Positions 1 to 62,039 of a stretch of DNA of 64,000 bases are shown here, piece by piece (the first letter of the stretch is position 1; each line of letters starts with the position of its first letter). Source of the stretch: Chaetoderma sp. LZ-2023a (lineage: Eukaryota > Mollusca > Caudofoveata > Chaetodermatida > Chaetodermatidae). Location of the stretch: positions 137,296,508 through 137,360,507 of the forward strand of contig CM067374.1 in the NCBI GenBank assembly GCA_034401795.1. The letters are read 5' to 3'. The position numbers and the translations under genes are program-made. Below the pieces are notes generated by a model. The model worked only from the letters and a program-made list of their open reading frames with translations. It did no database searches and was not told the DNA's origin.

Positions 1-690
1 AACAAAACTGTGAAGATTTAATGAGATTGGATAAGTTCTTCATTGATTAAATGTCAACTGAAAAACTTTAACTTTCATCTAATTTTTGGCACCGGAAAAG
101 TATGAAAAAAAATTGAAAATCACAATCATTATGATGGAGACCGATGCAATGATAGCGCAGAACAAATTTGTAACGTTTTATTGGCATCGGATAAGTCCTT
201 GATCAATTAAATGTCCATTGAATACCATTAACATTTACCCACTTCTTGCTGCAAAATAAGCTATGTCCAGACCCAGTAACAATCATTTCAATTGTGATGG
301 CGACTAGATGCAATGATGGATTGCATCAAATCTGTAAAGTTTTATTAACATCAGATAAGTCCTTGATCAATTAAATGTCCATTAAAAAACTTTGACCTAA
401 TTCTTGTCACGCCGGTCATCATTTGGATCAATTGCTATGTCGAGATCCTCCTCTTAGTTATGGGCTTGACAAAAATAGTCTTATCTTGTCCTACAAATGT
501 GCATTAAATAACTAAATACTTTAATTTTTTGAACAAAATTTAGTCATTAAAGCGCTAAAAGGTAGAATATATTAGATGATTAGATTTAGTAACGTGATAG
601 TCTTGGACAGTAGGATATGTTACGTGTGAGAAACATTGTCGATTCTAATTATTATTGGCCACTTTCGATGATTAAAACTAGTGAAGAAAC
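1..690. repeat. Diverged ~162-bp tandem repeat, three copies, then gene-free DNA
   Basis: Three diverged copies follow one another from about 10 to 470. Each contains a block like 'gataagtccttgatcaatta' followed by 'atgtccattgaa'; the blocks recur near 29, 189 and 353, so the period is about 160-164 bp. I found no parkin-like exon on the minus strand here, so the next parkin exons must lie further left. From 471 to 690 I see only AT-rich unique-looking DNA. Confidence 0.6.
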
Positions 691-1740
691 ATTTGTATAA
701 GCCATTACCCCACATCCCATTCCTGCTGTGACATTTGTATAAGCCATTACCCCACATCCCGTTCCTGCTGTGACATTTGTATAATCCATTACCCCACATC
801 CCATTCCTGCTGTGACATTTGTATAAGCCATTACCCCACATCCCATTCCTGCTGTGACATTTGTATAAGCCATTACCCCACATCCCGTTCCTGCTGTGAC
901 ATTTGTATAAGCCATTACCCCACATCCCGTTCCTGCTGTGACATTTGCATAAGCCATTACCCCACATCCCATTCCTGCTGTGACATTTGTATAAGCCATT
1001 ACCCCACATCCCGTTCCTGCTGTGACATTTATATAAGCCATTACCCGACATCCCATTCCTGCTGTGACATTTGTATAAGCCATTACCCCACATCCCGTTC
1101 CTGCTGTGACATTTGTATAAGCCATTACCCCACATCCCGTTCCTGCTGTGACATTTGTATAAGCCATTACCCCACATCCCGTTCCTGCTGTGACATTTGT
1201 ATAAGCCATTACCCCACATCCCGTTCCTGCTGTGACATTTATGTAAGCCATTACCCCACATCCCGTTCCTGCTGTGACATTTATATAAGCCATTACCCCA
1301 CATCCCATTCCTGCTGTGACATTTGTATAAGCCATTACCCCACATCCCGTTCCTGCTGTGACATTTGTATAAGCCATTACCCCACATCCCATTCCTGCTG
1401 TGACATTTGTATAAGCCATTACCCCACATCCCGTTCCTGCTGTGACATTTATATAAGCCATTACCCCACATCCCGTTCCTGCTGTGACATTTGTATAAGC
1501 CATTACCCCACATCCCGTTCCTGCTGTGACATTTATATAAGCCATTACCCCACATCCCGTTCCTGCTGTGACATTTGTATACGCCATTACCCCACATCCC
1601 GTTCCTGCTGTGACATTTGTATACGCCATTACCCCACATCCCGTTCCTGCTGTGACATTTGTATAAGCCATTACCCCACATCCCGTTCCTGCTGTGACAT
1701 TTGTATAAGCCATTACCCCACATCCCATTCCTGCTGTGAC
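691..1740 (-). repeat. 42-bp minisatellite, 25 units, made of a parkin exon/intron junction
   Basis: The span of 1050 bp divides exactly into 25 units of 42 bp. Read on the minus strand, each unit runs from 'gtcacagcaggaaygggatg' through 'tgggg taatgg' to 'cttatacaaat'. The first unit (1740-1699) holds the last 24 bp of the parkin IBR exon, the GT donor and 18 bp of intron. Units differ by a few substitutions (ATG/ACG codon, GTATA/ATATA/GCATA, one CGG for GGG near 1050). The period is a multiple of three and both minus-strand frames that span it are open, so the long ORFs seen across it are probably a property of the repeat. The unit repeats [14 protein letters not shown] if translated in the parkin frame; that frame ends at a stop at 652-654. 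Confidence 0.97.
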
Positions 1741-1866
1741 GAGGCATGTCACCTTACGATCATCTGTCTCTGGAAGAATGCCCGCTCCACATCCCCGCCC
1801 TGGACACAGCACACCACCATTTTGCAATACAAACTCTTCAGCACCAAACCTCTGATAGCGGTTATA
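1717..1866 (-). CDS. PRKN: Parkin exon: start of IBR domain (150 bp)
   Basis: The acceptor is 'tttgtttacag' and the donor is GGG|GTAATG at 1716-1715. The 50 codons begin [12 protein letters not shown] and end GMGCG; human exon 9 is also 150 bp with the same end points as I recall them. IBR zinc ligands are visible in VLCPGRGC and in the pair C-x7-C (VTC...GMGC). The last 24 bp are also the exon part of the first minisatellite unit, so this donor is followed by 24 copies of itself every 42 bp. Confidence 0.95.
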
Positions 1867-4800
1867 CTGTAAACAAAGACATACAATACATTAAACATTT
1901 CATAGAGAAATTTGGTCAAGAAAGTTACTCAAAATATTTGCTTATTGAATGTCCATTTGCAGGCTAAGAGGGGACTATTTTTACAAATTTACCAATGAAA
2001 TGACTGAGTCAGTTATTGAACCAGCAATTCTAGTTGTAAATTTTCAAACATAGTCTTCACTTGGTCGGCAAATGGACAATCCTCAAGACCACTGCAGAGG
2101 CTGGTTTTGGCCGGCTTTGCCATTGAAAGTGTTAAATGAACAGACTGACCACATCCACACTCCTTTCAGGGCCTTTGCTTACAGCGATGCTAATCTCATC
2201 TCAAATGTTGTATTGCACAGATAGAATATGGTTTATAGATTCCATATCATTCATATCCTGTCACATTCCCTGATCTGTATCGCAATTATCAGTTTTGTAA
2301 TATCGAGTAAATGTTGAACAGTGATCGACACCATTTTGTCTCCTCAAGCTATTGTGTGTGATGTCATGTAAGCGCCAATGTATCACAATCTTTATTATGC
2401 AATGCTCATCCAATTGAATATTTGAAACTAATTTGACTGGAAGTTGTTGCTGCCTATGGCAGAGAGGTTGTCTGGTCAGTAGGGTGGCGTCAATTTCTGT
2501 TATAAATACAGTCTACCATGTGTATAATGGCCAAATAAACTAAATTAAAGAATCAGCATATATTATATGCTGTCTGTGTCTGTATATTTATGCTGCCTCT
2601 ACAGATGTAATCGACCTTTCCAGTTTATCCATCAATCATATGATGACATAATCAACTATGTGACATGTAGGATGATGTCATTGTCATACTCAATAATGTC
2701 ATCAATGACGTAGATAAGCGCGCCACGAACACTTAATTGATGATGGACTAATTGTTGTTGTACGAATTATATGTCTTTACTATTTAATAAACATGCTGTT
2801 GAATATTTTGAAACGAATTTGACTGGGCACACCCAGTCAAATTAGTTTCAAAATATTCAACAGCTTAACTGTATAATTTTCTGGAAATTGGTAGTCAGGG
2901 ATCGATCGATCCTCACACAATCGAAGCATGAGTGGAGCTTAGCTAAAGATGGGTGGGGCATAGCTAAAACTGGTTTCATCCATTATAGAGCGTCTAGATG
3001 TATCTAACCTGTTCTTGGCCCAGCAGATAGAAATGATGTCCTTCCTCTATATAACCATTCTCACAATTAACTATAAACAAAACAGAAACAAGAGCGATCA
3101 GTGATTGTACAATCTTTGTCCTCAAATTTTTTGTCACATTATGATGATTTTCCTGATTTTTAGATCATACACAAACTAGTGAAATCCTAGTGCACAGCCA
3201 CTCCCTGTTGAAACTAGCCAAAAAACCCAGTAGTTTGCATAGATTCTAATTTTATCCAAGTCACGATTTAAAATTACATCATTTTAGAGACTTAGCTCAT
3301 GTAACTCAATGTAATGCAAAAATCTTAACATATGACATGTATGAAGAATTCATTCCATTTAAATTAATATCTTTTTAAGCTGTGAAATTTAATTAGAGGC
3401 ATGACTATATAAGACATGTGTTTAAAATACATTAACTTCAAGTACAGAAAATGTAAATAAAGATCTGTTGGAAGGTGCTGTGAAAATGCATAAATTAACC
3501 CCACCATAATTAGATTTCATCAACTTCATACATGTGATTAGACTGAGAATTACTCTCAGCTTGATTTTCAGGATTTGACCATCGATGAGATTGCAGCAAA
3601 CGCTGTAGACATGTAGAAACCACACATTCCATTCATATCAGCGGCACTGTGCGGTATGAGCGAATTTAGTCCCAAAATGGTGACCCAATACTGAGATATA
3701 ATACGGCAATATGTAGCGCTAAAACCAAAAACTTAACAGCTAACAAAGAGAGATAGACAGCCGGATAGACAGGCAGGTGGGCAGATAGATGGACAGACAA
3801 ACAAATGGACGGATAGCCTAACCAAAACAATTCATATTGGTTAGAATTCATATTTTGACCAATAACTATATCTTACCCGGGCAAGGAAGTGTGTAGCCAA
3901 TATCTGCTACATTAACAAATGCTCTGTTATTCAGCTGTGTGAGTCCATAAGCTGCAAAACACTCCAGACATATCACATGACCAGAGGCACAGGGGAAAAC
4001 GAGAACTGGACTGCTGCAAGAAAACACAATAGATCTGGCATCATGAACCTAGTCATGCTAGCATGTGAAAGGCCCAATGGGCCAGTATCGCTCACCTGGA
4101 ACATTGGCATTTCAACTAATCTTACATAAGTTTTACATCCATCGGTGTCACTTCCAATGACTTTCAGTCAAATGGTTTAGTTTTCGAGATATTGACAACA
4201 ATCTCTGAACTGTTTTTTTGCATTAGTGATTTTGAACAATGTTTAAGTGAAAATAGATGATATCAGTGCTAACAACAGGTGGTTTCTTAACTGTCTCACT
4301 GCTGCAAGCCAGTGCAGCCAATAATTTCAATTTTCAAAAGCTCTTGACTTGTTTAATATTTTGAAAACAATTCGACTGAAAGTTGTTGGCGACCTAGCCA
4401 CCAACAACTTTCAGTCCAATTGTTTTCAAAATATTTATCAGGTTCAGAGATATAACCTTTGGAATATGTCGTCTGCAAAAACGCAGCAGTCAATTGGCGA
4501 CTAGAGGTTTAAATACAATTGAAGAAAATGGTCTCTAAAGGCAGGTAGGTGGTCTTTATAGCAGGTTATTCCCCCACCACCACACAATCTATTTAACACA
4601 TGTGCATCTGGCTGAATCACCAAGTTAACAGCAGGGGTAGGGTTAGCTGGAGTTGATTTAGAAAATAATTTGACTGAAGCAGCAACAACTTTCAATCAAA
4701 TACATTTCAAAATATTTTTACGAGCATAGATGTCAGAGCACATAATACATATGTTAAATATTTAGCCAGTGATGGAAAGGTTAATCTGTTAATTGGAGTC

Positions 4801-7800: not shown

Positions 7801-10800
7801 AGTTTATGAGTGGCCTATTAGATCCTCTGTATCAATATTATAAGATGAGGTTAGTTATCCTTTAACAATCATACAAGATTTCCCCCCCCCCCATGGGGCC
7901 CACTAAAATTATTTTTAGGGGTCCCAAGTTGCATTATGGGGGTATATATACTCCCAAAAGGTCCCTTATGAGAATCCCTGCTACCACCCCACAAGCCCTT
8001 CCTATATATTTATATGAATTGGTTGATAAGTGAAGACAAAAACACGGTTAATACATTAATCCTTGGCACCGTCAAGGATAGGTAGTGAGTCTTATCGAGC
8101 CAGTCATTCAAGTGATAAATATTTGAAAACAGCCTTCTCTTGGCTAGCTCATGGACATTTCTTGTGTCCACTACAAAAGCCATTACTGGCCAGCTTGACC
8201 TCTAATGTGTTAACCCTTTCACCGATGAATTCCCATTATCTCAATTTCAAAGCAACCATACATAAAAACTGCTGAATATTTTGAAATTAATTTGACTGGA
8301 AGCCATTGCTGCCTAAAAGAAAACAATTTTTTAAGTCTTACAATCAGAATTAACTTCAAAATATTCCACAGAATAACTTTTATATCGTACAGAATTTACT
8401 TTTTCAGGGATTTGTGGGTGAGTGTTAATGTACATGTATTTTTTTGTGCATGATATTCTTACAAGACAGTCGAGCATGTGAGACAGGAAACAAGACGCGA
8501 GTTCTGTTTGATGTGATGCAATGGAACCACATTCTCATTTGCGCTGCAGACCACAGTACCTCCGTGATCAGTCTCCTGATGAGGTCGGGCACATTTAAAG
8601 TAAAACTCCTGCAGAAATATAGATTACATTGTTAATGATGTCTCACATGCTAAGAACGTGTCACACGCTAATGGGGTGTCACCCGTTAATGATGTGTCAC
8701 CCGCTAATGATGTATGACCTGCTAATGATGTGTCACCCGCTAATGATATGACACCCGCTAATGATGTGTCACCCGCTAATGATTTGCCAACAAATCTGAA
8801 TGCAAACAAGTCTAATGTACACCCGCATGCACATACCCACATGAGCGCTGCCTAATCATTATGTCCCAGGCCATCAATACCTTATGAAGAAATGGATCAG
8901 TGCTCGGCAATGTGCAAACTATTTTTAGAACAAAGCTTTACCACATTAATGAAGAAAATCTATCTAGCTGGTATCTGTTTAAATTAACTGAGTGCACTAA
9001 GTTATTAGCAGAAAACAATGAGTATTTATAGGAGCAAATCCAAATGCTGTTAACACCTTAATGGTAAAAAAAGACTATTTACTTTGAAACCTGAATTCCC
9101 AGAATCCCAATTTCAATGTAGGTAAGCTGTCGCCTATGGCAGCAACATTAACAGCGTCCAGTCAATTATTTTTAAAATATTCAACAGAATGTTTAATAAA
9201 TAATAGACATAATATTTGTACACTTGATGGCCTATTCAATACTCTTGACAGAGCTCTAGATATGTTACACATTACGCATTTTGATTTTAACGTCAGCCTA
9301 CATGTGACATAATTGATTATGATGTCATATACTTCAGTGACAGATCGGATCTATTCATTAAACAAGAAAGTAGAGACATTTTCTCAACGAATATCCATTT
9401 GCAGACCAAGAAAGGAATTATTTTAGAAACACTGGAATGACTGACTGGCAGGGTTATTGAACCATTAATTTAAGTCACAAAATTTCTCAAATCTCTTTGT
9501 ATGTAAATGGATATTTAACAAGATAACAACTAAAAACATTTTCGGCGTTCTTGGCAAGTAGAGTAAAATTCATTACGAGAGTATAATAACATGGAAGATT
9601 ATATTTCACACTTACAGGACTGGTTCCAGTACATTGCTTATTCTGACACTGTCCACCAATATTCTGTTGTCCTCGGTTACGGCGATATTCAAGGACATCA
9701 TCCCAGCCTGATGGACCCTAAACAAAGAATTCTAACACTTTAACACTTGAATTTGTTCAATAAAATTTCGTTTTCTCATCGAAAATATCCATTTGCAGAT
9801 CAAAACAAGACTATTTTAGAAAATTTACCACTGGAATGACTGGCTCTGTCATCGAGCCAGTCATTCAAGTGGTACATTTTCTAAAATAATCTCTTGTTCT
9901 GCAAACATGGCAAATGGATATTTCTCAAGACCGCTACAGAATCTGTTTTTGGCTGACCTAAGGGTTAAATAAAATCCATCAATTGTGTTTCCATTAACTA
10001 ATGTCGCTCCATATCACAGGGTTAGAAATAAATGAAAAGGTGTAGTTGCACGCAGGGCAATGTATGATGGCATTTCATGTATTTTCAGGTTGCCCGCCGC
10101 ATATGTTAAGCTAAATGACAAAGAAAATTAGAATCACTATTGCTTTGTCAAGTACATTCTGAAGAATGGACACAATTATTGAGAAATGGCATTAAGCATA
10201 TAGTTACTCTTTCTAATAAATAAATAAATAAATAAATGACTTAAAACAAAGAGTTAGTCAGTAGCTATCAAAACACAGTATAGTGCTATTAGTCTGAGTA
10301 TTTATCATGGTTGCCATGTGTACTATTAACAGCCAAAGTTTAGTTGCCCTTTTGAAAATCAGATTGCCCCGGGCAACATAGCAAATGGACATTTCTATCC
10401 ATGATATAATTTCAAATTTTTAAACAAATCACTTCAGTATGATAATATTCTGGAAATGTTTATTATGAAGTCATCATTCAGTGTCATAATTCATTAGGAC
10501 TAACCTGTGTTAATCATCTTTCTATCTACATCTAGTTTGTTAAAGAGGCCACTCCATATTTTAGTGCCTGTGAATAAATGGCCAGTGGAGCCATCATATG
10601 CCTGGACAGACATGGCTTTTGAAAGGGATCAGCCATGCAATATACAAAAGTACATTATTAGTTATACAGTTGTTTTGTGTGGTGTACAGGCTTCTATAAC
10701 CTGCACAAATATACTATTTCCCGATTGAAGTGAAGGAACTATCATTTGTACTTCCGAATCCCCAAGCATGCCAGTTATTCAAGCATGTACACACCCGACA

Positions 10801-13800
10801 ATAAAATACGGTATAAAAAATGTATTACCCCTCAAATTAATTAGCCACCAAAATGACGAATCGATTTATTTCATCACACGGCGCTTCAGGAAGAATATAT
10901 CAAAAGTGAAATACTATAGGTAAAGCTTGAATCACAAGCGGAAAAAGCACTTCAGCACAAAATGACAAGGCAATTTAACTGTCTCGCTGATGAAAGTCAC
11001 CAGACAATAATTTCAATGGACAATAACTCTGGACCCGCTAACTATTTTGAAAACAATTTGAATGAAAGTTGTTGGTGGCCAAGTCAAATTGTTTTCAAAA
11101 TATTCAACAGGTCCAGAGTTATTTTCCATTGAAATTATTGTCTGGTGGCTTGCATCAAACAGTTCATGTAGTTACAATTTTGCTAAGAAAAAGTGAAGGC
11201 TGCTAGCATATCAGTTAATATCAGTTAATACTCTAAAAAGCCAGATCAGTCCCCAATGAAAGAGCTCCACGCTTACCCTGTTCGTTAGAAAAGCGCCGTC
11301 GCCACAATCTCGACATCGGACTCTTAGCTTGCCTGACTGAATTGAAGCGCATGCCTTACAATAGACAAAATACTGGAAGCGTTTCTCCGCTGTCGCAGCG
11401 TGTGAATCACGGCTTATGCATGCACCAGCAGCTATAGTGTAAACAGGTAATGTGAAAGTTACATAGCACAAAACAAACAAGCGAAAACAGAGATTGCAGA
11501 CCCTCCCATTCCTGTCTTTGTAACATCTTAAACGTCTGACTGCTGAGTTATTGCAGATGACACATTACAGGGGATATATCTCTGGACATACTAAATACTT
11601 TGAAAACAATTTGACTGAAAGTTGATGGTGGAAGTCACCTTCAACTTTCAGTCAAATTGTTTTCAAAATATTCTGCAAGTGTTCCCTCATTGTAATTATT
11701 GTCTGGTGGGTTGCAGCAGTGAGACAGTTAAAAGAATCTTGGAACTTGTGAATCCAGATTTTTCCTACAGATCACACCCAATGTTGTGTATGGTCACAAT
11801 CGTTCTTGTGCTAAAATTTGAACAAAATCAGACAAGTAGTTGCAGAGATATCCATAGATCTCAATTTTGATCCGGATCAGGTTGCTTTAATCAGTGATTG
11901 TTGGCCTTTAAAAAAATCTCGAAGAGTGCGAAGTTGACTGTATGAGAATCCCTGCTCTGATATTGACAGACATACAGAAAAGGAATACATGCAGCTAGGA
12001 TGTTCCTACCTGAAGTGGTATCACCTTCATCTAAGACAGAATCAGATGGAAGGTGTGTATGCTGTGTGCTGGATGTCACCTCAGGCAATGGACATTGCCT
12101 TATGACAGCATGTAGCATGCTCTGTTCACCGATACCACAATCCTGCAGAATTATCAATCATCTCAATACACAGTAATGACACACATACATAGACAATTAC
12201 AACCAATTTCAAAACTAAAATAAATCACATCATACCCCTGCACACATGGCACACGGCAGATATTTTGGTCAGTGCCCTCTTAGTGGCAAGACATACAGAT
12301 CTAGGCAAATTGGTTAGCTAGACATACGTATAGTTGGACTGACCCAAAACCTAACAACCTTTGTCCTATCCCCATGGCAAACCCAACTATCTATGACGCT
12401 TCATAAACAAACATATAAGCTAAGTTAACAAATGAAAACAAACAAGGCAAATCAGTAAACTGATGGATGATCTCCGAAGACATACTCAGCAGGGAAAGGC
12501 TTGATACTATGGCCTAGACAAAGACAAAAGGATGGATGGATGGATGAATGGATGGATGAATGAATGGATGACTTACTAATTTTTGATACATGCACACATC
12601 CCAAAGATACATCCATGAACAAAAGTATGGATGGATGGACTAACCTAATTTGATGCATGCACACCTGCTACCTAAGATACATCCATGATCAGACGAATGG
12701 ATGGATGGATGATTGAAGGATGGATAGACTGACCTAATTTTGTGCATCCACAGCTGCTAGCTAAGTTGTATCCACATACATATATGTACAACGTTTCATG
12801 ATCATACATATAAAAATCTTGAAACTATGGCCCAGACAAACATGTAGACTGTAATGTTCAGTAAACCATGAAAAATAGGTGACACTGACCTCATTTCATA
12901 CACTGCATGTCTTTGCCATAAGATGCAGCCATATACCCATGATCATATATATAAAATTTTGAAACTATGGCCTGGAAAAACGTGTAGACTGTAATGTTCA
13001 GTGAACCGTGAAAAGTAGTTCAAAATAGGTCATGCTGACATAATTTCATACACTGCACGTCTTCTCCATAAGATGCATCCACATACCAAGTTTCATGATC
13101 ACACATATATAAGTCATGAAACTATGGGCCGGACAAACTTGTAGACAGCGAACAGACGGACAGACAAAGCGGGGCATAAAAACATATCCGACAAGGCGGA
13201 GAAATAACAAATATACATGTTCCAAGCACTTGGGATGTCTTCACTCCTCAGCAACTCTCCATAGATTCAATAACATATTTCTTGCTTCGTAAAGTAATTA
13301 TTATTGAATGCATTCACTTTGAATGCTCAACAACATTTTAACATTCTAATGGTCAAACCCGCTAAAACCCACCTTTCTCCATTCCAATTCCAAGAGAACA
13401 TTTTTTTTAGTTTTACCATCAGAATGAATGGCTCAATGAATGAGCCAGTCATGCCAGGATGTTCAGCGGTAAATTTTGAAAAATATCACCTCTTACAAAT
13501 TCATATTAAATTTAAGCACAATTTTTAATTTTCTTGACAAATATTGACTATTAAAAAGCTAATCATTAATAATTTAAAGAAAATTTAAACTTTTTCAGTC
13601 ACTGTTCATTTGCACGACAAGCATGGCAAGAGAGAACTATTTTTTTTAATTGATCACTTGATTATTGAGCCATTCAATCCAATGGTAGGCTACCAAAACA
13701 GACTTTTTCTTGACCTACAAATGGTTATTTCTCAAACCACTTTCGTCCGACTTGACCAATGTCCATGATGTTTTAACATACCTGTATTTTAATAGCATTG

Positions 13801-14045
13801 TCCAGCATCTGTCCACTGAATATAATGCGCAGATCCTGAGCTGACAGCTTCTGCTTTGCAGATATGACATGTTTCACCTGAGCCACGGTCCACTCCGGCT
13901 GCACAGTAACGGGAAATGTATGGACACTGTCCAGTCTCACATAAACAACAAATTCATCATCACGCCGGTCTCCACCATCTAGGCCTTTTTGCATTATATG
14001 GGCAAACATCGGAACAAACAAGCCACAGTTTGTAACACTGTCCGA
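1717..14045 (-). CDS. PRKN: Parkin, RBR-type E3 ubiquitin ligase (gene span, 3' part outside window)
   Basis: Eight minus-strand exons in order give an N-terminal ubiquitin-like domain, a linker, RING0, RING1 and the first part of the IBR zinc domain. All exon joins have GT/AG borders and agreeing phases (0, 1, 0, 0, 2, 1, 0). In the known family parkin acts with PINK1 on damaged mitochondria, building ubiquitin chains through a RING-HECT hybrid mechanism. The PINK1 target serine (human Ser65) is present in EQSMLHAV. The zinc ligand pairs I could align in RING0, RING1 and IBR are all Cys or His as expected. The catalytic RING2 cysteine is not in the window. Introns range from about 0.7 kb to 4.4 kb and carry hairpin repeats. 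Identity rests on motif-by-motif comparison with human parkin from memory, supported by three identical exon lengths. Confidence 0.95.
1930..2137. repeat. Hairpin element, family 2
   Basis: The left arm contains 'tgtccatttgcaggctaag' and 'aaatttaccaatgaaatgac'; the right arm contains the complement ('gtaaattttcaaacatagtc', 'ggcaaatggacaatcctcaa'). It ends 'ccattgaaagtg' then TTAA. It sits in the parkin intron next to the IBR exon. Confidence 0.75.
2188..2465 (+). repeat. Interspersed repeat, one of three copies (also 6889-7330 and 7369-7745)
   Basis: The block starting 'gatgctaatctcat' with 'tgttgtattgcac', 'catatcattcatatcctgtc', 'gatcgacaccattttgtctc' and 'gtgtgtgatgtcatg' recurs at 6.9 and 7.4 kb. 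It leads directly into the family 1 hairpin core ('gaaactaatttgactggaag'). This copy stops inside the hairpin. Confidence 0.8.
2796..2863. repeat. Hairpin element, family 1 core
   Basis: Arms 'ctgttgaatattttgaaacg' ... and its complement ending 'caaaatattcaacag' pair over about 32 bp around a four-base loop. Flanking DNA ('tactatttaataaacatg') recurs, inverted, beside the copy at 16.1 kb, so the core belongs to a longer element. Confidence 0.85.
3009..3070 (-). CDS. PRKN: Parkin exon: end of RING1 (62 bp)
   Basis: This exon is too short to stand out as an ORF. Acceptor 'tttgtttatag' and donor CAG|GTTAGA bound exactly 62 bp, the length of human exon 8. It encodes [20 protein letters not shown] after a split Val codon; human has the HHF and GxEQ motifs at the same place. 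The first Cys is the last RING1 zinc ligand. It joins the next exon in phase 0 (EQ|YNRY). Confidence 0.93.
3877..4013 (-). CDS. PRKN: Parkin exon: core of RING1 (137 bp)
   Basis: Acceptor 'tttcttgcag' and donor CGG|GTAAGA give 137 bp, the length of human exon 7. Translation begins [19 protein letters not shown] and ends GYTLPCP; C-x3-H-x2-C-x2-C and the later LPC are RING1 zinc ligands. The exon starts by completing a split codon from the previous exon (phase 2) and ends with one base of the next (phase 1). The reverse reading of this stretch has no coding look. Confidence 0.95.
4287..4495. repeat. Hairpin element, family 4 (TTAA + CTGTCTCACTGCTGCAA)
   Basis: It begins at a TTAA (4287-4290) followed by CTGTCTCACTGCTGCAA. 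The centre holds 'tattttgaaaacaattcgac' and its complement. The right terminus is degenerate ('cgcagcagtcaattgg'). Confidence 0.7.
4660..4720. repeat. Degenerate hairpin element, family 1/4 core
   Basis: 'gaaaataatttgactgaagcagcaac' is followed by 'aactttcaatcaaatacatttcaaaatatt'; one arm is partly lost. Confidence 0.5.
4990..5700 (-). repeat. Dispersed repeat with gacagac/gatgg tracts and 'ggccaggtgagcta' end
   Basis: Two 'ggacggacagaca'-like tracts (near 5030 and 5630) flank text about 'aagatggccgctgaaccattt' and 'cccaatggttcttgagaag'. The end 'ctcatttggccattctggcc' then 'aggtgagcta' resembles tails of repeats I recall from molluscan genomes. A 153-codon ORF on the minus strand over it has no recognisable domain. 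Similar tails occur near 4068-4100 and 61008. Confidence 0.5.
6138..6201. repeat. Hairpin element, family 1 core
   Basis: Arms 'ctgttgaatattatgaaact' and 'attagtttcagattattcaa' pair around the loop 'ggagttcc'. It is followed by a stretch with 'cttaactaaacatgggcggg', related to DNA beside the copies at 2.9 and 15.9 kb. Confidence 0.75.
6889..7745 (+). repeat. Tandem duplication (~404 bp) of the 2.2-kb repeat, each with a family 1 hairpin
   Basis: The text from 'cattcccgtttctgtatcac' (about 6965) recurs from about 7369. Both copies contain the hairpin core (7113-7203 with loop 'tatggc'; 7519-7584 with a shortened centre), then 'cagcttacctgtatg', 'ggcacctctat' and 'cagccatcata'. The second copy has lost one side of the loop. 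Confidence 0.8.
8272..8420. repeat. Hairpin element, family 1, with outer arm
   Basis: The core 'ctgaatattttgaaattaat' pairs with 'aacttcaaaatattccacag'. The outer right arm 'cagaatttactttttcaggg' matches the copy at 17.7 kb and, inverted, the one at 62.05 kb. An upstream TTAACCCTTTCACCGATGAA (from 8209) looks like the left terminus. It lies beside the 146-bp parkin exon. Confidence 0.7.
8463..8608 (-). CDS. PRKN: Parkin exon: end of RING0, start of RING1 (146 bp)
   Basis: Acceptor 'tatttctgcag' and donor TT|GTAAGA. It begins [10 protein letters not shown] and ends [10 protein letters not shown] and PH are RING0 zinc ligands and the final C-x2-C opens RING1. Human exon 6 is 116 bp, so this exon is 30 bp longer; the ten extra residues sit around [14 protein letters not shown], between RING0 and RING1. 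Phase 2 at its end agrees with the next exon. Confidence 0.92.
8636..8790. repeat. Degenerate 15-bp tandem repeat
   Basis: About nine copies of 'gctaatgatgtgtcaccc' variants follow one another just upstream (gene sense) of the parkin RING0/RING1 exon. The open frame it gives on the minus strand (SLAGDT repeats) is a product of the 15-bp period. Confidence 0.8.
9365..9500. repeat. Hairpin element, family 2, partial
   Basis: 'atatccatttgcagaccaag', 'cactggaatgactgactggc' and a weak complementary arm. The outer right arm is missing. Confidence 0.55.
9616..9717 (-). CDS. PRKN: Parkin exon: middle of RING0 (102 bp)
   Basis: Acceptor 'ctttgtttag' and a consensus donor CCT|GTAAGT. The 34 codons begin [11 protein letters not shown], matching the GPSxWDDVL signature at the same exon border in human, and hold C-x4-C (QCQNKQC), two RING0 zinc ligands. 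Human exon 5 is 84 bp, so six residues are inserted near [11 protein letters not shown]. Phase 0 at both ends. Confidence 0.92.
9740..9968. repeat. Hairpin element, family 2, complete (TTAA ends)
   Basis: TTAA at 9740-9743 and 9965-9968 bound a long inverted repeat. The centre is 'ctggaatgactggctc...gagccagtcattcaa'; arms carry 'atatccatttgcagatcaaa' and 'caaatggatatttctcaaga'. It starts only 23 bp upstream of the parkin 102-bp exon acceptor, in the polypyrimidine side of the intron. Confidence 0.85.
10975..11165. repeat. Hairpin element, family 4
   Basis: TTAA (10975) then CTGTCTCGCTGATGAAA; arms 'ccagacaataatttcaatgg' and 'ccattgaaattattgtctgg' pair without mismatch, and a central 'tattttgaaaacaatttgaa' core pairs as well. 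The right TTAA has become TTCA. Confidence 0.85.
11277..11431 (-). CDS. PRKN: Parkin exon: start of RING0 (155 bp)
   Basis: Acceptor 'acactatag', donor AGG|GTAAGC. The core reads [20 protein letters not shown] then RCRDC; human has FYVYCKGPC and GKLRVQCSTC here. Two C-x2/3-C pairs are RING0 zinc ligands. It starts in phase 1, completing an Ala codon with the last G of the preceding exon. The first 16 or so residues ([17 protein letters not shown]) are linker and poorly conserved, so the exact acceptor could differ. Confidence 0.88.
11528..11731. repeat. Hairpin element, family 4, complete (TTAA ends)
   Basis: TTAA at 11528-11531 and 11728-11731. Right end 'ggttgcagcagtgagacag' is the complement of the family terminus. 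The core 'aaacaatttgactgaaagtt' pairs with 'aactttcagtcaaattgttt'. It lies in the intron between the linker and RING0 exons. Confidence 0.85.
12010..12142 (-). CDS. PRKN: Parkin exon: end of Ubl and linker (133 bp)
   Basis: Acceptor 'aattctgcag', donor TCAG|GTAGG. It begins [20 protein letters not shown]; the serine in EQSM aligns with human Ser65, the PINK1 phosphorylation site. The border before DCG equals the human Q57/N58 border. The linker part [12 protein letters not shown] resembles the human activating element around residues 100-110 (LSSSVLPGD). The human exon is 241 bp, so the linker is much shorter here. Confidence 0.9.
12525..12720. repeat. GATG microsatellite tracts in a repeated block
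   Basis: Runs of 'ggatggatgaatggatgg' alternate with 'tgatacatgcacac' and 'aagatacatccatgaacaa'; the block occurs about twice with a period near 110 bp. Confidence 0.75.
12795..13200 (+). repeat. Diverged ~120-bp tandem repeat
   Basis: 'catgatcatacatataaaaa' followed by 'gaaactatggcccagacaaa' and 'gtagactgtaatgttcagt' recurs near 12800, 12940 and 13095. It ends in a 'gacggacagacaaagcgggg' tail. Confidence 0.75.
13340..13770. repeat. Diverged family 2 hairpin sequences
   Basis: 'ctgttcatttgcacgacaag' ... 'cctacaaatggttatttctc' form the arms; 'gaatggctcaatgaatgagccagtcat' near 13424-13452 is a second palindromic centre. Probably two degenerate copies. Confidence 0.5.
13782..14045 (-). CDS. 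PRKN: Parkin exon: ubiquitin-like domain (264 bp)
   Basis: Acceptor 'tatatcttttag' at 14047-14046 and donor CAG|GTATG. The Ubl starts at [16 protein letters not shown] and runs to [17 protein letters not shown], matching the beta-grasp pattern of parkin Ubl (VRF..GFPVEV, LRVIFAGKEL). About 30 residues precede the Ubl in frame (from [18 protein letters not shown]), which human parkin lacks. Translation could start at either Met in [11 protein letters not shown] if the upstream exon is untranslated. Ubl identity is firm; the start is not. Confidence 0.88.
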
Positions 14046-34902: not shown

Positions 34903-36040
34903 GAACTTATCATGCAGAAATCGTCCACAGGACGCGCAACCCGGTCCCTGAAACAGGGCAAAGGACGAGGAGTATGAGCAAACTAGTTAAGCTTAGACAC
35001 TCAAACCAACTCAAAGAGAAGGAAAACGATCATAAAGATCAATATACATCAGAAAACCAGCATTGCAACTTGAATTGCTGATAAATACATAGCCAGGCTG
35101 ATTATGACGTCATTAATCCCGTGACAGGAAAAAATCGATCCCAACAAACATCCAAGTGCAAGGACGAATTGTATGCTGAATGGATACGTCGACTACACAA
35201 CCATCAGATACACATAGATAACTCTTTTCTGGCAAAAATGTTAATTATCTCCCTTTGCTTACTATAATTAACATCACCACATTATCAATAACTAGATACC
35301 TGACACCTTGTATAGACAAACCATCCAACGTGACGAACCGGAGTACTCCACCACCTGCACGCCTCTTAACTCTCTCCACCTCATGGGGAAGGAATTGGAT
35401 CAAGAGGGCAAAGCGAGAAGACCTTTATACTAGGCCTCCAACTCACTGGACATAAATCATTTGGTTAGATAACCTAACAGTGTTAGTAGGAAATGGAACC
35501 ATGGTGGAGAGAAAACTAACTCTCTGCTGCTGTGATGCCACCACCTAGCATCATACAGACCTGTGGACATAAACAGAAAGAGAAATTAGCCTTAGGTAGC
35601 ACCGAGTTGACATAAACCAACTAACCAAGGCGCTTATCACGGTAAACGCGAGTCCCGGAAACACAATACACCGGGGAAAAAAACTCGCTAATTTTACTAG
35701 AAGTCACCTGATTCAAAGGTCCTAGGTCCCCCTTTGGCGAAGTGATCCTTCCTGCCATCCTAATCAGTGACTATCACTCCAAAATAACACAACCAAGTTA
35801 TGAAAACAGTTTAAGAGCAAGGAAAAGCTTTTGCACAAAAAAACATGTGTGATCTCTCTGCCAATAATCTAGCAAAGAGGAAGTGCTAGTCTGCGCATGC
35901 GCGGTGGTGGGGCTGGCATCCGCCAGACTACGCTCTGACTCCCTGCCCAGTAGGGGCACCTAACTGTTTTAATCTGAGTGTTTATTGAGTGAAAGCCAAT
36001 ATTTAGCAATATCAAAAGTATTAGGGAGGTAAGTATACTC
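34903..36040. other. 5' flank of the DIRS element and junction with CR1 copy 2
   Basis: No domain-bearing ORF. Contains 'gtctgcgcatgcgcggtggt' and 'ctgcccagtaggggcacc' near 35890-35960. One end of the DIRS element must lie here, but I could not define it. Confidence 0.4.
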
Positions 36041-36045
36041 TTGAA

Positions 36046-39000
36046 GTGAAAACACGTAGGCCTAATAGACAGACAACCCAACAGGAACAAACAACTACAA
36101 AAAATATCCTTGTAATTGGAAGTTCGACACTGAGGAAACTCAGTGGAAAATACATGTCAAATGACTGTATCAACACAACAGTTCGATCGTACAGTGGAGC
36201 ATGTATAGATGACATTACAAACCGAGTAACTGACTTCCTTAGTCCAAATCACTTTGATGCTGTAGTCATACACGTCGGTAGTAATGATATGCGTAGGCAA
36301 TCCACCACTGACATGATATATGATTATGATGGTTTAATTGACCACATCAAGGCACTAGCACCTGGCATTACCATTAGCCTATCAGCTCTCTTGCCACGAC
36401 CCACCAGCATATATGCCAATAGGAAAATTATGCAGTTCAATCACATGTTGCACTCCCTTGCCACATGGCATTCTGTAAATTTCATAGATCATAATAATCT
36501 CTTCTGCCATCCAGATGGACACATTATGCAAGAGCTTTTCCATGACCACGTACACCCAAACTACGATGGTATGAGGTTATTGTCAAATAACATTATGAGT
36601 TGCGTAGAAAGCATATTTTATTCAACTGTAGCTCAAAGCAAACCATCAAAACCTAATAATTTTTTATCCACAGCCCCCCAGGACGAGTGCGTTTGTTCAA
36701 CCATGCTAAATATTAATCCTATAAACGCAACACAAACCAACACAACAGAGTGCATGTATTTTAATCAATCTAGAACAAAAACAAACAATAATGAATGTCA
36801 AAAGAACCAATTAAAATTATCCAATCGTTTTAAGATCCTTCCAGATTTATGCAACACTACAAATCCAGCCACTGATATGGATGCTGATGGAAATTGTAAT
36901 GATAAACATAAAAACACAACAATTCAATCAAGATCAATAGCCAACAAAACAAAAACAACCAAAAGTAACAAATTGCTAAATAAGCACCGTCACAAACCGT
37001 ATATTACTAATGTTTTAGAAAAAGATTTCAAAATTATAGTTACAAATACTGACACTTTGAATGCAGATAAAATAAATGAGCTTAAGTTACGACTGGAACT
37101 TATGGACAGCAAACCAGCAATATTAGCTATCTCAAAAATCAAACCCAAGCATTTCCGATATGAAAGAGTATTAGCTGAATATAACATAAACGGCTATGAT
37201 ACTTTACCTTTGAACATATCTAAAGAGACAGAAGGCAGGGGAATGATCATTTATATAAAATCATCATTGCCATACAAACTCATAGATACTGACCTTGAAT
37301 TTTCCGAATTTATCAGCATTGGAATTGATTTTGGTGGTGGAAATAACCTGTTGTTCACATGCATTTATCGCAGCCCAAATTCAACATTAGAAAATAACAA
37401 AAATCTACAAATACTTTTAGGAGACCTAGTCCACAAGCCATTCTCCCACTGCATTATTGTTGGAGACTTCAACTTTCCATGCATCAATTGGGTAAATAAC
37501 TCAACTACAAATGGGCCAGGCCATACAGAATATGAATTTATTGAGACTGTAAGAGATTACTTCTTGTACCAACATACTACAGAACCAACAAGAGGGAGGG
37601 GAACAGATAGATCATCATGCATTGATCTACTATTTACAAATGAAGAGGGGATGGTAGATCAAATTGACATTGGCGCACCCCTTGGAAAAAGCGATCATGC
37701 ACTAATAACCTTTAAGTTTATTGCTGAAGTGACAGGCTTGCCAAAACCAAAAACAAGATATTTGTATGAGAAAGCCGATTATGAGAAAATGAAACAAATG
37801 CTTGATATGGATTGGGATGAGATGTTGAAGGATAAGGAAGTAGACGATCAGTGGCAAATTATTACATCAGAATTAAATTCGGCTATTCAGGAATGTGTAC
37901 CACAAACATGTATTAAGAGAGATTTTACAAACTTCAACAAACACAAACTCCCATTCAGTCAAAAAAATGTGTCCAAGATTCACCGCAAGCGTAGACTATG
38001 GGCAGAATATAAGCTAACAAGAAATGATACTGTGAGGATTAAATACAATAAAGTACGAAATCGAGTCCGTCAGGAAACTAGAAAAATTGTTAAGTTACAT
38101 GAGCAAAAAATTACAGAAAAAATTAAAATAAACCCAAAGAGATTCTGGACATATGTTCAAACTAAGACTAAAACTAGACTATCTATACCAGACTTATATA
38201 CTGATAACAATAAGAAAAACCTTACTACTTCTAACTGTGAAAAAGCAAATGCCGTAGCAAATTTCTTTTCTTCTGTATTCGTCTGCGAACCTGACGATAC
38301 TCTACCAGAGCTGAATAGACTATCTAGCCCGCAGCAAAATATCTTACAAATAAAGCAAAATGATATCAAAAAGAGTTTAGATAAATTAAAAATATCAGAG
38401 TCACCCGGTCCTGATGGCATCCAACCACGTATCCTAAAAGAACTTAGTAATACTTTAGCCCACACGCTCAAAATATTATTTCAAAACTCATTGAACTCCA
38501 GTACATTACCAACACCATGGAAGCAGGCCAATATTACACACATATTTAAAAAGGGAGACAGAAAAGTCACAAGCAATTATAGGCCAATAAGTCTGACAAG
38601 TGTCGTCTCCAAAGTACTTGAAGGTTTAATTAGAGACAGTATCATCCAGCATATGAAAACGAATGGCTTATTTAGTAAATGTCAATTTGGTTTCATCCCA
38701 GGTAGGTCCACCACACTGCAGTTATTGACGGTAGTGGATAAATGGTTACAAATATTGGATAGTGATGGTGGTGTGGTGGACGTTGCGTATTTTGATTTTT
38801 TAAAGGCATTTGACAAGGTTCCCCATTGTAGACTTGTACATAAACTGAATCTATATAACATCAATCCACAGATTATTAAATGGATAGAAAGCTTTTTGTC
38901 ACAGCGTAGCCAGAGAGTAATCATTAGTGATGAACCCTCTGAATGGAAATCAGTATTTAGCGGGATACCACAGGGATCAGTTTTAGGACCAGTGTTGTTT

Positions 39001-39936
39001 GTTTTATATATAAATGACTTACCTAATGTGAAAGCTAACAATAGTGAAATATACCTGTATGCGGATGACACAAAACTTTTTCATGGCATAAAATCCAATG
39101 ATGATGCTAACGAAATGCAACAAGATGTATACTTGTTAACAAAATTGACCAGTAAATGGTTACTCCAATTTAATGCTGATAAGTGTAAATCTATGCGAAT
39201 TGGCAAAATCAATTTACAAAATCATAGCTATAGTCTCGGTAAAGATGGGTCCCGTATTAATCCAAGCGAGGCTGAAAAGGATATAGGTGTTATTATTGAT
39301 GATAAACTATGTTTCGAGAAGCACATAATAGATAAAGTTAATAAAGCCAACTCCATTATGGGTGTAATAAGGCGCACATTTGTATCCCTTGACACAAACA
39401 TATTTAGAACCCTGTATACATCATTAGTGCGACCACATCTGGAATTTGCTAATCAGGTTTGGAGCCCTTATCTCAAGAAACATATAGAGCTGTTAGAAAA
39501 TGTTCAGCGAAGGGCGACAAAAAGTGTCTCGGGACTATCAAAACTAAATTATGAGACTAGGCTCAGGGTCCTTAATATACAAACTCTTGCATACCGTAGA
39601 GTACGAGGAGACATCATTGAAGCGTACAAAATTATAACCAAAAAATATGATCCAGAAGTGTGCAACCTATTTGAATTTCGATCAGACTCAAGAACCAGGG
39701 GACACAGGCTAAAACTATACAAATCCAGACCACGTTTAAACATACAAAAATACTCCTTTAAACATAGAATTGTGGACTTATGGAACAGTCTTCCGAACCA
39801 TGTTATAGAAGCAACAACCATGATATCATCTGAAACAAAATTAGATAAACTATGGGATAACCAACCCCTATACTATAACTATCTAGCTGGCAATATAAAT
39901 CCCATGTTTTATAACCAAATTGAAAAAGGAAATTAG
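36046..39936 (+). CDS. Intact SGNH esterase, APE endonuclease and reverse transcriptase in one frame (1296 aa)
   Basis: Residues about 20-205: SGNH esterase with VIGSSTLRKLSGKYM, HVGSNDMRRQ and HDHVHPNYDG, which supply Ser, Asn, Asp and His. About 320-560: endonuclease with FKIIVTNTDTLN, GDFNFPCINW and GKSDHALITF; where copy 1 has SEVKPK this copy has SKIKPK, so the metal-binding Glu is Lys. About 560-700: basic connection. About 780-1040: RT with SPGPDGIQPRIL, NYRPISLTSVVSKVLE, FDFLKAFDKVPH, GIPQGSVLGPVLFVLYINDL and YLYADDTKLF (YADD 39058-39069). Tail: FKHRIVDLWNSLPNHVIEA. In copy 1 esterase and endonuclease are separated by stops; here they are continuous. The true start is unclear because the upstream part is displaced by the DIRS element. 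Confidence 0.93.
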   Translation: MKTRRPNRQTTQQEQTTTKNILVIGSSTLRKLSGKYMSNDCINTTVRSYSGACIDDITNRVTDFLSPNHFDAVVIHVGSNDMRRQSTTDMIYDYDGLIDHIKALAPGITISLSALLPRPTSIYANRKIMQFNHMLHSLATWHSVNFIDHNNLFCHPDGHIMQELFHDHVHPNYDGMRLLSNNIMSCVESIFYSTVAQSKPSKPNNFLSTAPQDECVCSTMLNINPINATQTNTTECMYFNQSRTKTNNNECQKNQLKLSNRFKILPDLCNTTNPATDMDADGNCNDKHKNTTIQSRSIANKTKTTKSNKLLNKHRHKPYITNVLEKDFKIIVTNTDTLNADKINELKLRLELMDSKPAILAISKIKPKHFRYERVLAEYNINGYDTLPLNISKETEGRGMIIYIKSSLPYKLIDTDLEFSEFISIGIDFGGGNNLLFTCIYRSPNSTLENNKNLQILLGDLVHKPFSHCIIVGDFNFPCINWVNNSTTNGPGHTEYEFIETVRDYFLYQHTTEPTRGRGTDRSSCIDLLFTNEEGMVDQIDIGAPLGKSDHALITFKFIAEVTGLPKPKTRYLYEKADYEKMKQMLDMDWDEMLKDKEVDDQWQIITSELNSAIQECVPQTCIKRDFTNFNKHKLPFSQKNVSKIHRKRRLWAEYKLTRNDTVRIKYNKVRNRVRQETRKIVKLHEQKITEKIKINPKRFWTYVQTKTKTRLSIPDLYTDNNKKNLTTSNCEKANAVANFFSSVFVCEPDDTLPELNRLSSPQQNILQIKQNDIKKSLDKLKISESPGPDGIQPRILKELSNTLAHTLKILFQNSLNSSTLPTPWKQANITHIFKKGDRKVTSNYRPISLTSVVSKVLEGLIRDSIIQHMKTNGLFSKCQFGFIPGRSTTLQLLTVVDKWLQILDSDGGVVDVAYFDFLKAFDKVPHCRLVHKLNLYNINPQIIKWIESFLSQRSQRVIISDEPSEWKSVFSGIPQGSVLGPVLFVLYINDLPNVKANNSEIYLYADDTKLFHGIKSNDDANEMQQDVYLLTKLTSKWLLQFNADKCKSMRIGKINLQNHSYSLGKDGSRINPSEAEKDIGVIIDDKLCFEKHIIDKVNKANSIMGVIRRTFVSLDTNIFRTLYTSLVRPHLEFANQVWSPYLKKHIELLENVQRRATKSVSGLSKLNYETRLRVLNIQTLAYRRVRGDIIEAYKIITKKYDPEVCNLFEFRSDSRTRGHRLKLYKSRPRLNIQKYSFKHRIVDLWNSLPNHVIEATTMISSETKLDKLWDNQPLYYNYLAGNINPMFYNQIEKGN

Positions 39937-61064: not shown

Positions 61065-61945
61065 ATTTACTACACATATTTAGGCATTTGCTATACATAT
61101 TTAGGCATTTGCTACACATATTTAGGCATTTGCTATACATATTTAGGCATTTGCTATACATATTTAGGCATTTGCTACACATATTTAGGCATTTGCTATA
61201 CATATTTAGGCATTTGCTACACATATTTAGGCATTTGCTATACATATTTAGGCATTTGCTATACATATTTAGGCATTTGCTACACATATTTAGGCATTTG
61301 CTATACATATTTAGGCATTTGCTATACATATTTAGGCATTTGCTACACATATTTAGGCATTTGCTACACATATTTAGGCATTTGCTATACATATTTAGGC
61401 ATTTGCTATACATATTTAGGCATTTGCTACACATATTTAGGCATTTGCTACACATATTTAGGCATTTGCTATACATATTTAGGCATTTGCTACACATATT
61501 TAGGCATTTGCTATACATATTTAGGCATTTGCTATACATATTTAGGCATTTGCTACACATATTTAGGCATTTGCTATACATATTTAGGCATTTGCTATAC
61601 ATATTTAGGCATTTGCTACACATATTTAGGCATTTGCTACACATATTTAGGCATTTGCTACACATATTTAGGCATTTGCTACACATATTTAGGCATTTGC
61701 TACACATATTTAGGCATTTGCTACACATATTTAGGCATTTGCTACACATATTTAGGCATTTGCTACACATATTTAGGCATTTGCTATACATATTTAGGCA
61801 TTTGCTACACATATTTAGGCATTTGCTATACATATTTAGGCATTTGCTATACATATTTAGGCATTTGCTACACATATTTAGGCATTTGCTACACATATTT
61901 AGGCATTTGCTACACATTTAGGCATTTGCTACACATATTGAGGCA
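61065..61945. repeat. 21-bp minisatellite, about 41 units
   Basis: Unit 'tttgctacacatatttaggca' with one common C/T variant (tacac/tatac). All units keep the 21-bp length except the last ones near 61915-61940. Frames on both strands are open only because 21 is a multiple of three (MCSKCLN / MYSKCLN on the minus strand); I do not regard them as genes. Confidence 0.97.
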
Positions 61946-62039
61946 GTTGCTATACATTCTGCAACATGCATAGCTATATCCGCTGTCCAAAATTTGTACA
62001 GGAATGCAATTTATTATTTGATTTCTTAAGGTCTATTAT

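Follow-up and report, generated by a model that had tools for sequence, protein, structure and literature searches.

In the human gene IFI6 (6-16, G1P3), downstream repeat units of a minisatellite act as splice donors, as stated in passages of PMC4526556. The multiple-donor minisatellite itself is credited to Turri, Cuin and Porter (1995, NAR 23:1854) in passages of the same source as well as of PMC2572611 and PMC2915984. In human UBC, AGGT motifs spaced by 228 nt are spliced in frame, such that a variable number of units is included, according to excerpts of Duan et al. (2024, PMC10809524). Furthermore, duplicated human genes carry internal tandem repeats at their exon-intron boundaries, with effects on splicing, as far as excerpts of PMC2812944 report.

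Here, we analysed a stretch of 64,000 nt from Chaetoderma sp. LZ-2023a (GCA_034401795.1, contig CM067374.1, positions 137,296,508-137,360,507 of the forward strand), in the following called the window; positions are window-relative. It holds a minisatellite that spans the border between exon 9 and intron 9 of parkin, a mitochondrial quality-control gene that encodes an RBR E3 ligase. As in IFI6, the minisatellite stands at an exon end and supplies several 5' splice sites: the array crosses the exon/intron border, a GT donor is found in 25/25 units and the frame is kept. It differs from IFI6 in the gene and in the unit (about 12 bp in IFI6), in the location of the unit within a conserved zinc domain, and in that the use of extra donors is reported there but predicted here from the sequence. 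With UBC, going by the excerpts of its report, the locus shares a tandem array, a splice site per unit and a frame-preserving period. The UBC unit, in contrast, is a whole ubiquitin monomer, and AGGT serves there as donor and acceptor, whereas the 1,050-bp parkin array contains 0 AGGT motifs, which rules out dual-specific splicing of the UBC kind. The repeats of PMC2812944 are likewise tandem repeats at exon-intron borders, with altered splicing in the human cases; in the excerpts, however, they belong to novel introns of recent paralogs, while the gene studied here has one strong genome match. Two further candidates were dropped as precedents, i.e., the miR-137 VNTR, whose donors lie in pre-miRNA sequence, and DDX3Y MSY2, whose repeat, as far as passages of its description go, holds transcription starts and not splice donors.

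The original prediction had known of no description of such an array in parkin, and no parkin array was found among the titles and abstract openings listed from open-licence literature searches. The kind is known, since a multiple-donor minisatellite is described for human IFI6 (6-16) in the passages cited above.

Such an arrangement, i.e., 25 practically identical 5' splice sites at 42-nt spacing, all in frame and facing one acceptor, constitutes a natural test of the choice among equal donors, in which the contributions of proximity, exon length and U1 occupancy can be addressed. It concerns a conserved gene in which only one donor choice leaves the zinc domain plainly normal. If more than one donor is used, the array would be a copy-number-dependent source of parkin variation. 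Our main reading, to which we assign a probability of about 0.6, is that of a passenger minisatellite that expanded recently over the splice junction, such that the first donor would dominate and later donors would rarely be used.

The parkin gene around exon 9

The coordinates of all features are collected in Table 1. Exons 2 and 4-9 in the window as well as exons 10-12 downstream, i.e., left of the window, all lie on the minus strand in parkin order. These exons encode the domains Ubl, RING0, RING1, IBR and RING2 in this order. Exon 12 encodes GGCMHM, the Cys of which corresponds to the RING2 catalytic Cys (human C431). With human parkin as tblastn query, exons 1 and 3 could not be placed, so that an intact gene is not fully shown.

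Table 1. Features of the parkin locus in window coordinates (exon 10: coordinates of the sampled stretch L010).
Feature	Position	Strand	Remarks
Minisatellite, 25 x 42 bp	691..1740	-	unit: terminal 24 bp of exon 9 plus 18-bp opening of intron 9 with GTAATG
First 5' splice site, GTAATG	1711..1716	-	24 further copies, one each 42 bp; last at 703-708
Open frame, parkin reading frame across the entire array	652..1890	-	412 aa between stops
Parkin exon 9, 150 bp, IBR domain (first donor used)	1717..1866	-	includes first 24 bp of unit 1
Exon 9 acceptor TTTGTTTACAG	1867..1877	-	directly precedes exon 9
Dispersed element, internal inverted repeat, MITE-like	1890..2136	-	stops some 23 bp short of exon 9, on its upstream side
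Parkin exon 8, 62 bp	3009..3070	-	tblastn with human parkin
Parkin exon 7, 137 bp, RING1	3877..4013	-	tblastn; boundaries read by hand
Parkin exon 6	8463..8608	-	tblastn; boundaries read by hand
Parkin exon 5, RING0	9616..9717	-	tblastn; boundaries read by hand
Parkin exon 4, RING0 start	11277..11372	-	5' edge not pinned; 3' edge by hand
Parkin exon 2, ubiquitin-like domain	13782..13952	-	tblastn; 5' edge not pinned
Parkin exon 10, 81 bp, phase 0	L010:8730-8650 (left of window)	-	followed by GTAAGA

The exon next to the array had been predicted to be the parkin IBR exon, ending at exactly 150 bp at the first donor, and both statements hold. The IBR Pfam match of exon 9 alone stays under the cut-off (16.6 vs. 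24.3 bits); the identification rests on the alignment with human parkin, which covers 50/50 positions of the translated exon without a gap (2jmo, E 4.3e-19). Human exon 9 is also 150 bp long. Given the first donor, exon 9 joins in phase with exon 10, which sits 2.6 kb downstream outside the window, and intron 9 measures 2,593 bp, of which the array fills the first 1,026 bp. The exon 9/10 border follows GCG in phase 0, which we take to be the same intron position as in human parkin; in contrast to the novel introns of the human paralogs mentioned above, the affected intron thus presumably stands at its human place. The exon 9-10 product of the first donor (n=0) retains 8/8 zinc ligands, for which we adopt the numbering of human parkin, and shares 46 of its first 66 positions with human parkin.

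When the 2.44-Gb assembly was searched with human parkin, 44 matches were obtained at E values up to 10. One of them is a strong match to the IBR exon (E 2.7e-15, 70%), and the sole other match over that part is at E 0.9 and 30%. The remaining matches mostly concern the ubiquitin-like N-terminus, partly in tandem copies resembling polyubiquitin, and a few on other contigs cover the C-terminal part. A single locus in this genome thus matches parkin strongly, and it includes the catalytic Cys. PACRG adjoins parkin in vertebrates; synteny with it was discarded as support for orthology, as the best of its two matches lies on contig C12 and the other on C11. The former (L057 of genome G000) covers all 183 positions of the PACRG-family model in one open frame and is not beside parkin, while the C11 match is partial.

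Two observations concern exon 6. Compared to human, it encodes about 10 extra residues after EFYFKC (a 10-residue alignment gap). A second parkin minisatellite (18 bp x 8.4, 8633-8783) ends 25 bp upstream of this exon, and its end falls in the likely branch-point region.

Structure and uniqueness of the array

TRF reports a period of 42 bp with 25.0 copies, 97% matches, zero indels and a score of 1971 at 689-1740, and unit starts are spaced by exactly 42 bp in 25/25 units. On the minus strand, the unit reads GTCACAGCAGGAACGGGATGTGGG|GTAATGGCTTATACAAAT (bar: exon/intron border), such that the proposed composition, i.e., the last 24 bp of the IBR exon followed by the donor within 18 bp of intron, is seen in 25 units. 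The span of 691-1866 given in the original prediction contains both array and exon; the array alone is shorter (Table 1).

Variation among units is confined to 7/42 columns, which define nine distinct unit types with a mean pairwise identity of 97%. Adjacent units differ on average by 1.25 positions vs. 1.26 for distant ones, i.e., neighbours are not more alike. Given this homogeneity and the lack of neighbour likeness, the expansion would be recent or the array would have been kept homogeneous. One codon of the unit is Thr in 17/25 and Met in 8/25 copies. Since unit 1, i.e., the real exon end, has Met and not Thr, and unit 25 likewise has Met, the Met state may be ancestral among the units. 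In unit 17, CGG replaces GGG in front of the donor, and this unit ends in GCR.

Next, we considered whether the array size is an assembly artefact, i.e., whether the array was collapsed, expanded or represents a single haplotype. Tandem arrays are prone to assembly error, and the locus is present as one copy in one assembly. However, nine unit types among 25 and neighbours that are no more alike than distant units are unlike a simple copying error, and gene sequence is found on both flanks of the array. We therefore consider such an artefact very improbable.

A 1.4-kb DNA query matched the array at one place only in the assembly, a result limited by the search tool, which passes over simple repeats and very common words. 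All 43 other matches of this query lie within the adjoining dispersed element. A 38-bp pattern with at most 3 mismatches yielded 24 matches in the assembly, every one in the parkin array, while the reversed 38-bp control pattern yielded zero. The 43 further matches of the dispersed element are spread over many contigs, and its edges differ by copy (1882-1908 and 2055-2137 in a comparison of 7 copies). On the other side of the array, in intron 9, window positions 1-690 hold a decayed tandem duplication with a shift of about 160 bp and 72% identity.

Candidate donors and predicted isoforms

GTAATG is present at 25/25 expected sites, and the parkin frame has stops in 0/25 units. The first such stop past the array lies at 652, and two further long open frames, one per strand, are found in the array region. 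Thus, the 25 tandem in-frame candidate donors of the original prediction are borne out with respect to motif, period and frame.

In terms of U1 duplex energy, 24/25 donors score -6.3 kcal/mol and the donor of unit 17 scores -7.5. The eight other readable donors of parkin range from -4.3 to -10.6 kcal/mol, three being weaker and five stronger than the array donors, where all values are simple pairing energies and not splice-site scores calibrated for the host species. At +5/+6 the first donor is weak, and it pairs with U1 no better than the other 24, of which 23 are equal to it and that of unit 17 is stronger. Its dominance is thus assumed from its position. Within exon 9, four further GT sites pair as well or better, i.e., AAG|GTGACA (-6.6), two in phase 1 (-6.7) and one in phase 2 (-6.3), and therefore U1 energy alone does not single out unit 1.

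The exon could accordingly end elsewhere, namely at the upstream AAG|GTGACA or, as the frame is open through the array, at the last donor with the whole array coding. Use of the upstream site would, however, delete the ligands C352 and C360, and inclusion of the whole array would place 336 more residues (24 x 14) within the zinc domain. Moreover, the alignment with human parkin runs without gaps through the 50 codons that precede the first donor and goes on in exon 10. Such alternative exon ends are hardly credible to us.

A different possibility is that the run of U1-pairing sites alters splicing efficiency without giving rise to isoforms, either by U1 recruitment or by competition that leads to intron retention, with only n=0 being productive. 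That 24 extra sites, none of them weaker in U1 pairing, lie within about 1 kb is in line with this, as is the fact that the frame of a retained intron stops at 652. Against it stands the predicted RNA structure of four units, whose stability falls below that of most shuffles (z +1.18; 182/200 shuffles at least as stable). Two units folded as DNA are similarly unremarkable (z +0.32; 126/200 shuffles). Without special fold stability, structure gives no support for a regulated exposure of donors, and a modifier role of this sort appears decidedly unlikely.

Each donor choice is in frame, and with later donors the stretch from ligand C352 to C365 would grow by 14n residues. This agrees with the expectation that each alternative donor would insert n x 14 residues into the IBR domain without a frame shift (42 bp; stops in 0/25 units). 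Of the 14-residue peptide proposed for the extra unit, length and frame stand, while its sequence had to be corrected for the Thr/Met codon (17/25 and 8/25) and for the GCR end of unit 17. As each unit ends in GCG (unit 17: GCR) before the donor, the last included unit would adjoin exon 10 as GCG|HVFC. Two readings of the extra residues are therefore possible: either they follow C360 as an insert, or they lengthen the loop that runs from C352 to a new C360. From the sequence, the longer-loop reading makes a folded long isoform conceivable; parkin proteins with such extra residues are probably impaired. The read-through product also gave a match to the Galaxin repeat below the Pfam cut-off (E 9e-4, 19.6 vs. 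28 bits), which was rejected as an artefact of Cys-containing repeats.

These data bear on the idea of a functional splice ladder in which several donors are used, yielding IBR inserts of 14n residues, and copy number tunes parkin activity between individuals. It would draw on the 25 intact, near-equal, in-frame donors in a stop-free frame as well as on the last unit of any longer isoform, which would restore VTAGxGCG beside exon 10, such that a folded longer loop is conceivable. Precedents are the downstream donors of human IFI6 (passages of PMC4526556) and the in-frame ladders from the tandem splice-site array of human UBC (excerpts of PMC10809524). On the other hand, the insert falls among zinc ligands and the units are without coding constraint (see below); overall, we deem such a ladder unlikely. 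More doubtful than either the ladder or the modifier role is a graded version, in which donor number would vary among individuals and set the share of 14n isoforms, the last unit would restore GCG|HVFC, the long loop before C360 would fold, and mitophagy capacity would become a copy-number trait.

Sequence constraint and genomic background

Among the variable columns of the unit, 5/7 are nonsynonymous compared to 88/126 of the possible single changes. The invariance of the six donor columns is expected by chance with P 0.31, and at most one variable column in 9 with P 0.53. Judged from these sequence statistics, the array appears to be without sign of selected function, and the differences between units look neutral.

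To place the array in its background, we used a sample of 188,352 bp in 19 stretches, among them the window and loci sampled for other reasons (L010 and the window overlap by 293 bp). It contains 15 minisatellites of at least 4 copies, three of which lie near one another in L053 and are perhaps a single broken array. The period is divisible by 3 for 9/15, and each of these 9 has 1 to 6 open frames. An in-frame, stop-free array is thus not remarkable in itself, which weakens this part of the original prediction. Within random stretches, minisatellites make up 1,966/50,000 bp (3.9%, summed by hand), where the sample is small (five stretches placed on parts of 14 contigs). Given this density, an array across some splice site is unsurprising without selection.

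We therefore return to the passenger minisatellite. Here, a 42-bp stretch spanning the exon 9/intron 9 junction would have been tandemly duplicated and then have grown to 25 near-identical copies, recently and through either slippage or unequal exchange. At 150 bp from the acceptor, the first donor gives the normal exon with a complete IBR zinc domain, and it would most likely produce most functional mRNA. The remaining 24 donors are then intronic, inside the first 1,026 bp of intron 9. Unit length and frame would fit probably by chance, and the simplest reason why the array is tolerated is that it fits in both frame and phase. If donor 2, 3 or a later one were used now and then, the resulting proteins would carry 14, 28 and more extra residues; as the longer isoforms are in frame, premature-stop decay would not remove them. 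The array would then persist because it is nearly neutral and not because a ladder was selected.

Further repeats were observed in and near the window. A 45-bp x 116.5 array (L013, 1-5239) lies about 44-49 kb left of the window and starts at the edge of the sampled stretch. A 21-bp x 42.6 minisatellite at 61065-61957 contains three long open frames. Finally, positions 36025-39936 (plus strand) hold a single open frame of 1,303 aa with GDSL lipase, endonuclease and reverse transcriptase matches, i.e., a LINE-like element whose frame also covers an esterase-like domain.
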